DNA of 64,000 bases from Priestia megaterium (GTDB lineage Bacteria > Bacillota > Bacilli > Bacillales > Bacillaceae_H), in assembly GCF_009497655.1 (NCBI RefSeq), contig NZ_CP023317.1, positions 3,687,501 through 3,751,500 on the forward strand. Direction: 5' to 3'. The notes below the pieces were generated by a model. That model was not told where the DNA came from, searched no databases, and saw only the letters and a list, made by a program, of their open reading frames with translations. Position 1 is the first letter of the stretch. Each line of letters opens with the position of its first letter. Shown here piece after piece: positions 30,097 to 47,714 of this stretch. Made by a program: the position numbers and the translations under genes.

Positions 30097-30398
30097 TATT
30101 CATCAAGAACTTTCAGATTTTAATCAAAAACACAGCGATTGGGAGTAGTAAAAGCTTATTATTCGGTCAAGAGAGCTACGGGTTGGTGTGACGTAGTCCA
30201 ATAATACTTTGAACTCGCCCAGGAGTGGTAATTCAGAAAGAATGCAGAAGTGTTCTCTAAGTTTTAACGTCTAACCTTCGTTATCAGGTTTTAAGCAGGG
30301 TTCTTTAAGAGCCAACAAGAGTGGTACCGCGGTTAGCTAAAGCTTATCGTCTCTTCTCTCATTTGATAATGAGGTAGGAGACGATAAGCTTTTTTTAT
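30097..30398 (+). promoter_or_regulatory. T-box leader, probable leucine specifier
   Basis: The leader has the T-box sequence AGTGGTACCGCGG (30320-30332) followed by a rho-independent terminator (30339-30353 with 30378-30392, then a T-run). Stem I can be drawn with lower helix TTGGG/CCCAG (30139-30143 with 30218-30222), upper helix TATTATT/AATAATA, an AGTA motif on the 5' side, and GAA-CTC-G on the 3' side. The specifier is then CUC (30214-30216), leucine. Uncharged tRNA-Leu would pair there and with the antiterminator bulge and allow transcription of the permease. ACU (threonine) is the shifted alternative, but CUC has the expected purine after it. Confidence 0.85.
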
Positions 30399-47116: not shown

Positions 47117-47142
47117 AAAAAAACCGCTTGTTTATCAAGCGG
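47117..47142 (-). terminator. Terminator of the SAM-riboswitch-controlled gene
   Basis: CCGCTTG/CAAGCGG with loop and seven Ts on the minus strand. Confidence 0.9.
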
Positions 47143-47148
47143 ATCCTT

Positions 47149-47487
47149 TTACTGCGTGTGTTCAACATACTGTTTTTTAGCTAAATATAATTCACGACTC
47201 AGCGTGATCCGCCGTTCTCTCAAGTTCCTTAATTTAACTTGAAACTGTTCATTAGTTGGCTCTTCTTGAATTAAGCGATACGTAAAAGAAATATCTTCAT
47301 TTAACTGTTTAAAATCTTCCCATATTTCTTGAACGAGTGCGGATTGTTTGTCTTCAAATGAACGATTTTGCTTCGTTTTTAGCGCGGCTAAAATTTCCTG
47401 CTGCCACGTTTCGTCTTTTAGTTCTTTTGCTAACAAGTATAGATCTAAATAATCATCAACGCTTAGCGCCTGTTGTGTATTTTTCAA
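47149..47487 (-). CDS. Uncharacterised 112-residue protein under a SAM riboswitch
   Basis: No recognised family. The chain is highly charged, helical and soluble: MKNTQQALSVDDYLDLYLLA at the start and LRNLRERRITLSRELYLAKK near the end suggest long amphipathic helices, possibly a coiled coil. There are no cysteines. The start is TTG 47487 because AAAGGTGA lies five bases before it; the in-frame GTG/ATG at 47496/47493 overlap that site. It is the only gene behind the SAM-I aptamer at 47557-47658 and ends in its own terminator, so its synthesis is expected to rise when SAM is low. Confidence 0.75.
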   Translation of the reverse strand: MKNTQQALSVDDYLDLYLLAKELKDETWQQEILAALKTKQNRSFEDKQSALVQEIWEDFKQLNEDISFTYRLIQEEPTNEQFQVKLRNLRERRITLSRELYLAKKQYVEHTQ

Positions 47488-47495
47488 TGTCATCA

Positions 47496-47505
47496 CCTTT
47501 TCTAT
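47496..47505 (-). promoter_or_regulatory. Ribosome-binding site that can be sequestered (anti-SD at 47540-47549)
   Basis: ATAGAAAAGG on the minus strand (47496-47505) is complementary to CTTTTTCTAT (47540-47549), ten pairs with one G-U, so the site can be hidden when the upstream strand is free. Confidence 0.5.
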
Positions 47506-47522
47506 ACGAAATGTTTCTTCCT

Positions 47523-47658
47523 AAGAAGAGGATTTCATCATAGAAAAAGATTCCTCTTCTTATCTGTCAGAGCTAGGCTATGCTGGAATTAGCACCATTC
47601 AATGATTGTGGTTGCTGAGGCTTCAAAGGGCCAGTCCCTCCACCTCTCTAGATAAGAA
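47523..47658 (-). promoter_or_regulatory. SAM-I (S-box) riboswitch
   Basis: The minus strand carries the S-box core: GAGGTGGAGGGACTGGCCC, then GAAGCCTCAGCAACC, then GGTGCTAATTCCAGC, then CTGACAGATAAGA. P1 is TTCTTATCT/AGATAAGAA (47650-47658 with 47557-47565). Beyond the aptamer (47557-47658) the 3' strand of P1 can pair instead with TCCTCTTCTT (47523-47532). No hairpin with a T-run follows, so control is probably of translation rather than termination. Confidence 0.92.
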
Positions 47659-47685
47659 TATTTCGCTTTTAAATTATTTCTGACT

Positions 47686-47714
47686 ATTCTAATATGTTTT
47701 ATAGGTTACGTCAA
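47686..47714 (-). promoter_or_regulatory. Sigma-A promoter of the SAM riboswitch transcript
   Basis: On the minus strand TTGACG (47709-47714), a 17-base spacer and TAGAAT (47686-47691), with the start near 47679, about 20 bases before P1. Confidence 0.75.

Follow-up and report, generated by a model that had tools for sequence, protein, structure and literature searches.

What does an S-box control, and at which level, when no terminator follows its aptamer and the gene behind it belongs to no known family? We asked this of a locus on the minus strand of a 64,000-nucleotide stretch of Priestia megaterium DNA (contig NZ_CP023317.1, positions 3,687,501 to 3,751,500; hereafter the window), for which an earlier note had proposed a SAM-I riboswitch gating translation. 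The features of the locus are listed below in the direction of transcription.

47686..47714, minus strand: promoter-like site TTGACG-17-TAGAAT, 27 nt upstream of the aptamer (consensus scan, 10/12 matches)
47557..47658, minus strand: SAM-I (S-box) aptamer, full length (RF00162, 93.8 bits)
47552..47562, minus strand: antisequestor 5' arm, TAAGAAGAGGA, with six nt in common with the P1 3' strand
47525..47549, minus strand: sequestering rod 5' arm in the predicted minimum-energy structure, with the anti-Shine-Dalgarno (anti-SD) tract CTTTTTCTAT at 47540-47549
47522..47532, minus strand: antisequestor 3' arm, TCCTCTTCTTA, part of which is used again in the inner hairpin of the rod
47496..47520, minus strand: sequestering rod 3' arm, containing ATAGAAAAGG at 47496-47505
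47492..47498, minus strand: Shine-Dalgarno (SD) sequence AGGTGAT, with AGG inside the rod and TGAT unpaired
47149..47487, minus strand: ORF of a 112-aa helical protein of the VDDYLDLY family (TTG start at 47487, stop at 47149)
47117..47142, minus strand: intrinsic terminator after the ORF (stem 47142-47124 plus a T-run; consensus scan)

The aptamer, its gene and the place of the terminator

The aptamer match spans model positions 1-108 of RF00162 (E 3.2e-21; gathering score 44.4) and is certainly beyond chance. The genome (5.24 Mb) carries 13 S-boxes, and in an alignment the window aptamer kept 33/33 of the columns that are invariant across the 12 others, which, together with the score, bears out the textbook S-box core that had been claimed. 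The aptamer probably binds SAM. Another ligand, of the kind sensed by the spermidine-sensing SAM-I variants that the available part of PMC10853860 places in Gram-positive bacteria, would go with a target that is not a known methionine gene; however, there were 0 deviations at those 33 columns (which represent the genome's own S-box core rather than the variants' own positions), and neither the target nor the neighbours tested by Pfam (DUF1540, an amino acid permease and a DUF5316-like protein) are polyamine genes, so that we regard this reading as very improbable. The promoter-like site is to be taken as a consensus match only, since five such sites were found in the scanned region against 4.1 expected.

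The TTG start codon lies 69 nt downstream of the aptamer, and because an intrinsic terminator directly follows the ORF, the transcription unit consists of one gene. The gene is present in 5/10 genomes of the genus (the window's genome counted), and the homologue of Priestia aryabhattai is 92% identical over the window protein. All five Priestia orthologues keep the TTG start, and an in-frame ATG two codons upstream is lost in one of them (L018). Over the ten pairs of these orthologues, dN/dS was 0.06-0.26, indicating purifying selection. This conservation, together with the wide spread of the protein family, is hard to square with the idea that the ORF is incidental and that the product is the leader RNA, acting in trans and depending on SAM. 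Listeria is known to have SAM riboswitches that act as small RNAs, and the genome of the window holds a gene-less S-box elsewhere; yet the window leader showed no terminator by which a short RNA could be released, and among the readings considered here we hold this one to be the most improbable.

Between the aptamer end and the gene, a consensus scan detected no intrinsic terminator in the window, nor did a stem-plus-T rule in any of the five Priestia leaders, the window included. Both scans thus agree with the earlier claim that no terminator follows the aptamer, and the window leader and the four other Priestia leaders lack the feature that marks a transcription-attenuating S-box, an intrinsic terminator after the aptamer. 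The same rule found a terminator in 11/11 gene-linked S-box leaders elsewhere in the genome, a control set that excludes the gene-less S-box (L007). According to the note, S-box control in Firmicutes is usually transcriptional, and the accessible portion of Barrick and Breaker 2007 (PMC2258182) describes transcription attenuation as dominant in Firmicutes.

In other families, the leaders that share this layout (L055, L056, L062, L066 and L080) have a terminator predicted inside the rod in 5/5 cases; there, the inner hairpin of the rod ends in a T-run, and in the window AACATTTCG stands in its place. Since these relatives outside Priestia carry a predicted terminator in the rod, the window leader is best read as a dual leader in which the terminator was lost while the sequestor and the control of translation were kept. 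Loss, rather than gain, seems to have occurred in Priestia. That transcription is still the main level of control, either at a terminator whose U-run is poor or by the action of Rho on the untranslated mRNA, with sequestration secondary, would fit both the five leaders that keep a terminator at that very place and the uniform terminator type of the 11 controls. However, the hairpin left in the window rod has 5 bp, is scored by neither scan, and the rule scores 0/5 Priestia leaders, which makes this alternative unlikely, although we rank it first among the alternatives.

Competing pairings and the proposed switch

The note had suggested that the 3' strand of P1 can pair with 47523-47532. This pairing exists, as an antisequestor of 11 bp (47562-47552 with 47532-47522) that takes six P1 nucleotides; P1 of the window therefore competes with an alternative helix of the expression platform, as in other SAM-I riboswitches. 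When P1 is closed, 47549-47525 and 47520-47496 are predicted to form a 22-pair rod, which in the ribosome-binding region covers AGAAAAGG. Its base is made of the ten pairs, one of them G-U, between CTTTTTCTAT and ATAGAAAAGG, so that the pairing of anti-SD tract and ribosome-binding site put forward in the note was recovered as part of a longer helix. In this predicted fold, the first 22 nt after the aptamer (nt 1-22) take up 8/11 nt of the SD window, and the SD is thus predicted to be paired in the ligand-bound form, as expected of a translation attenuator.

Pairing of the SD window with nt 1-22 after the aptamer (5-10 of 11 nt) was seen in 10/10 leaders of this layout, against 0-3 nt in the controls from the same genome, whose aptamer-to-start lengths are unequal (68-135 nt). 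The controls of 68-85 nt with a found start gave 3 nt (own01) and 0 nt (own06, own08, own11 and own13); the SD values of own04 (start not found) and own09 (start guessed) were not counted. SD pairing as such was rejected as a discriminator, the SD windows of the controls being paired at 0-10 of 11 nt; as many of these pair with other partners, only the partner tract discriminates. Since the single-sequence z-score of the window rod is modest (-1.94; 8/200 shuffles equally good), the case for the rod rests on its conservation in relatives.

The five Priestia leaders vary at 10 of 174 columns and differ pairwise by 0.6-4.0%, whereas the pairwise dS of the ORF in the same five is 0.08-0.39; the leader is thus far more conserved than synonymous sites. 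P1 was paired in 100% of cells and the antisequestor in 90.9% (50-70% with slid partners) over 10 leaders, both counted on a cross-family alignment (A2); the rod, whose region is gapped in A2 and was therefore counted on the five Priestia leaders, was paired in 99.1% of cells. Both the antisequestor and the rod are retained in the four other Priestia leaders. Compensation is thin: the rod shows one both-side change (G-C to A-U), which 97/500 shuffles equal or exceed, and the antisequestor two over the 10 leaders, which 81/500 shuffles equal or exceed, so that covariation in neither helix goes beyond shuffled controls by itself.

Folding with and without P1, a check named in the note, gave a divided answer. 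At equilibrium, the rod was predicted both with P1 open and with P1 closed, and the SD accessibility of the window was 0.40 with P1 closed against 0.46 with P1 open, a smaller predicted change than that of control own01 (0.13 to 0.51); equilibrium folding was accordingly rejected as proof of switching. The order of synthesis gave a different picture. Before the SD arm is made, the antisequestor of the window is favoured over P1 (-39.8 vs -37.4 kcal/mol), as it is early in L015, L017 and L018; in the fifth Priestia leader (L016), it is never favoured over P1 at that stage. At full length, P1 plus rod is ahead in the window by 2.2 kcal/mol (-50.4 vs -48.2), and in the other four Priestia leaders the antisequestor lies 0.7-1.8 kcal/mol above P1 plus rod. 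The corresponding gap in dual-type leaders was 6-12 kcal/mol (L062, L066 and L080) or 2.7 kcal/mol (L056); L055 was left without a comparable gap, the computation having chosen a different helix. By these calculations, it is only the order of synthesis that would favour the antisequestor when SAM is absent, and this holds for four of the five Priestia leaders.

A rod that forms at equilibrium whether P1 is open or closed is also what one would expect of a relic, that is, a leader that has lost its terminator, always folds into the rod and leaves expression constant. Against this stand the conservation of the leader well beyond that of synonymous sites, the upkeep of both alternative pairings, and an antisequestor that lies within 2.2 kcal/mol at full length and is favoured earlier. 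We consider a relic quite unlikely.

The reading that we prefer, with a probability of roughly 0.7, is that translation of one gene is under a SAM-I riboswitch working through an antisequestor/rod switch, the terminator of an ancestral dual leader having decayed. When SAM is scarce, the P1 3' strand would pair with TCCTCTTCTTA during RNA synthesis, and the antisequestor would keep the anti-SD tract in a loop and the SD free, so that the protein is made. With SAM in place, P1 would lock and preclude the antisequestor, and the anti-SD tract and the purines of the SD would be held in the 22-bp rod, keeping ribosomes off. The leader would share its ancestry with the dual leaders, where the rod's inner hairpin doubles as a terminator; in Priestia, this terminator would have decayed while the sequestor stayed. 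Beyond what can be read from the sequence (the aptamer, the lack of a recognisable terminator, both pairings with their conservation, and the coding ORF), we infer that SAM switches the leader and in this direction. As the SAM-bound form buries the SD, the protein would be made at low SAM or methionine. Taken together, the window leader is a real and canonical SAM-I riboswitch, and the level at which it acts is most likely translation; its gene belongs to an undescribed family that is linked to S-boxes recurrently.

Compared with the transcription-attenuating SAM-I riboswitches of Bacillales (RF00162), the window leader has the same aptamer and the same P1-competing helix and would be expected to follow the same OFF logic, but differs in that no terminator was found, in its SD-burying rod, and in a target that is not a known methionine, cysteine or SAM gene. 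According to the part of PMC7270179 available to us, the SAM-I riboswitch of the Xanthomonas campestris met operon controls mainly translation and also responds to uncharged initiator tRNA; that system is Gram-negative and governs a met operon, whereas the window leader is from a Gram-positive and its gene has no known family.

The protein family and its link to S-boxes

Searches of Pfam, NCBIfam and PHROGs gave the VDDYLDLY family no match above cut-off or with a convincing E-value, and the target thus stands as the note described it, a 112-residue protein of no known family with a TTG start. For DUF7667 (PF24704), the window protein reached 15.3 bits against a cut-off of 27 bits, four of five relatives 13.0-15.1 bits, and two solo-domain ORFs 16.3 and 16.6 bits. 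A PDB sequence search with the family gave a best E of 0.067, and no match to the protein was found in plasmid records. The structure model has three helices (10-22, 26-75 and 80-111; mean pLDDT 87, pTM 0.55), and Foldseek returned helical bundles and coiled coils among varied helical proteins; as the best E was only 0.53, the model suggests no role. A likeness to Sda-like or IDEAL-like hairpins was considered and set aside, no Pfam match supporting it. The window protein, small and helical, may serve as an adaptor or regulator and not as an enzyme.

Named homologues come from Priestia, Bacillus, Paenibacillus, Saccharibacillus and Sporolactobacillus. In 20 aligned sequences, 13 columns are invariant, seven of which form the motif DDYLDLY. 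On its own, the N-terminal hairpin makes up ORFs of about 50 aa in three genomes of family f50, and weak matches to it (E 1.5e-4 to 7.1e-4) lie close to the end of other proteins.

The class scan matched in 139/398 genomes, and the loci that it returned were scanned for S-boxes with Rfam. An S-box lies on the same strand at most 400 nt upstream in 19/82 distinct homologues from at least six families (f1, f42, f30, f40, f17 and f15, plus the family of L020), so the target is not a one-off. These 19 are the five Priestia loci (the window itself, L014, was labelled from its own RF00162 match), Bacillus sp. 03113 (L020), the five dual-type leaders and eight tandem loci of f15 (L063, L065, L073, L081, L082, L084, L085 and L086). 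Dropped before this count were L019 (same genome as L015), L026 and L088 (short), rows of identical sequence, and L054, L070-L072, L074 and L075 (other proteins with the motif). The note had held that homologues consistently lacking the aptamer would speak against its proposal; within Priestia the aptamer is present in 5/5, and among the homologues overall 63/82 lack it within 400 nt upstream. Most of these 63 are of Paenibacillus type (45: 18 from Paenibacillus, 4 from Saccharibacillus, 2 from 'Bacillus sp. FJAT' and 21 from f50), and four have an S-box farther up (L067 and L083 at about 480 nt, L069 at 690 and L106 at 1056). Placed on the tree, the S-box label requires seven changes, gains and losses taken together and not separable, at least six of them forced by well-supported branches, against a mean of 17.4 for shuffled labels.

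By title and abstract start, no open-access paper among the search matches reports a VDDYLDLY protein as a SAM-riboswitch target. The part of a regulon survey at hand (PMC3766115) mentions various Bacillales genes of unassigned function under SAM riboswitches. The mechanism is of a known kind, translational and tandem SAM-I riboswitches being known already; what is new is the target, which recurs. With it, an undescribed protein family, repeatedly found behind S-boxes, joins the SAM regulon of Bacillales, and this repeated occurrence points to an unknown step of methionine/SAM physiology.

Other elements were noted beside the homologues. At the Paenibacillus-type loci L021-L025 and L027-L046, a palindrome, CCNAGTATAATACTNGG, lies over the -10 box upstream in 22/25, and it recurs in L115-L122. 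It was tried as a clue to a regulon and rejected: it occurs once in 8/12 genomes, always beside a VDDYLDLY gene, and thus yields no further target. Shortly after the stop codon of the homologue, GCATGCAG or GGCATAC recurs in Paenibacillus loci (for example L021 3340, L027 3333, L029 3409 and L036 3359). A c-di-GMP-I riboswitch lies near the homologue in L047, L059 and L061, with an EAL-like ORF, recognised by eye, downstream in L047.

Leader wirings, tandem loci and partner ORFs

The S-box leaders of the family follow three wirings: (a) a predicted terminator inside the sequestering rod (L055, L056, L062, L066 and L080); (b) the same rod without a terminator (Priestia); and (c) a start codon 12-13 nt after the aptamer (nine loci, L020 and the eight tandem ones). 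In wiring (c), this short distance makes the SD border on the P1 3' strand or share bases with it, and leaves no room for a terminator, whose absence after these SD-proximal aptamers was therefore not counted as evidence. Opening P1 raised the predicted SD accessibility in 8/9 of them and lowered it in L081. The available text of PMC2258182 distinguishes dual, translational and direct translational attenuation, and describes SAM-I leaders with the ribosome-binding site in the P1 3' side. By these classes, as far as that text gives them, the five relatives of wiring (a) are dual, the window leader is translational and the nine others are direct; here, all three precede one protein family. The leaders thus form a natural series of one SAM-I platform with or without a terminator, useful for studying shifts between transcription and translation control.

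Tandem SAM-I riboswitches are on record in the accessible part of PMC9481103 (164 doubles and one triple), and the eight f15 loci likewise place two S-boxes before one gene. They differ from what that part describes in a predicted mixed mechanism: a hairpin meeting the terminator rule follows the first aptamer in 4/8 (L063, L081, L085 and L086), and the second lies 12-13 nt from the start codon in 8/8. By alignment, the SD-proximal aptamer is without a P4 stem in 8/8, and the upstream aptamers carry G-to-A and C-to-T at two otherwise invariant columns.

A motif search found an ORF of about 90-115 codons with a LysR-type HTH upstream of the homologue in 10/21 f15 loci (L063, L073, L081, L084, L085, L086, L069, L058, L060 and L078); one is also present in L047. 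Four of these ORFs lie behind an S-box (L063, L081, L084 and L069). The one tested, from L081, matched HTH_1 of Pfam (3.7e-20) and was read as a DNA-binding domain alone. A small FbpA-like ORF lies upstream of the homologue in L064 (1135-1335), L087 (1060-1353) and L088 (1144-1356; all in homologue orientation), identified by Fur_reg_FbpA of Pfam in L088 (2.2e-15) and by motif in the other two; an S-box is ahead in L088 only.

As a tentative proposal, somewhat more apt to fail than to hold, VDDYLDLY proteins could be regulators, small and helical, that are made when cells are starved of SAM. In several lineages of Bacillales they would have come under S-boxes of varied wiring: terminator plus sequestor, sequestor only, tandem with the second S-box blocking the SD directly, or an S-box before a gene for a partner, either an FbpA-like protein or a LysR-type HTH on its own. 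In Priestia, a dual switch would then have become purely translational.

Two further leader elements were seen. The gene-less S-box L007 (1501-1600; C1:936977-937076, plus strand) has, by eye, a TTGACA promoter-like sequence upstream and a hairpin with a T-rich stretch downstream, and downstream on its strand no 60-codon ORF begins ahead of a second hairpin that has a T-run; it is a candidate orphan S-box or SAM-dependent small RNA. Within the window, a T-box leader (119.5 bits) lies at 30126-30357 on the plus strand.
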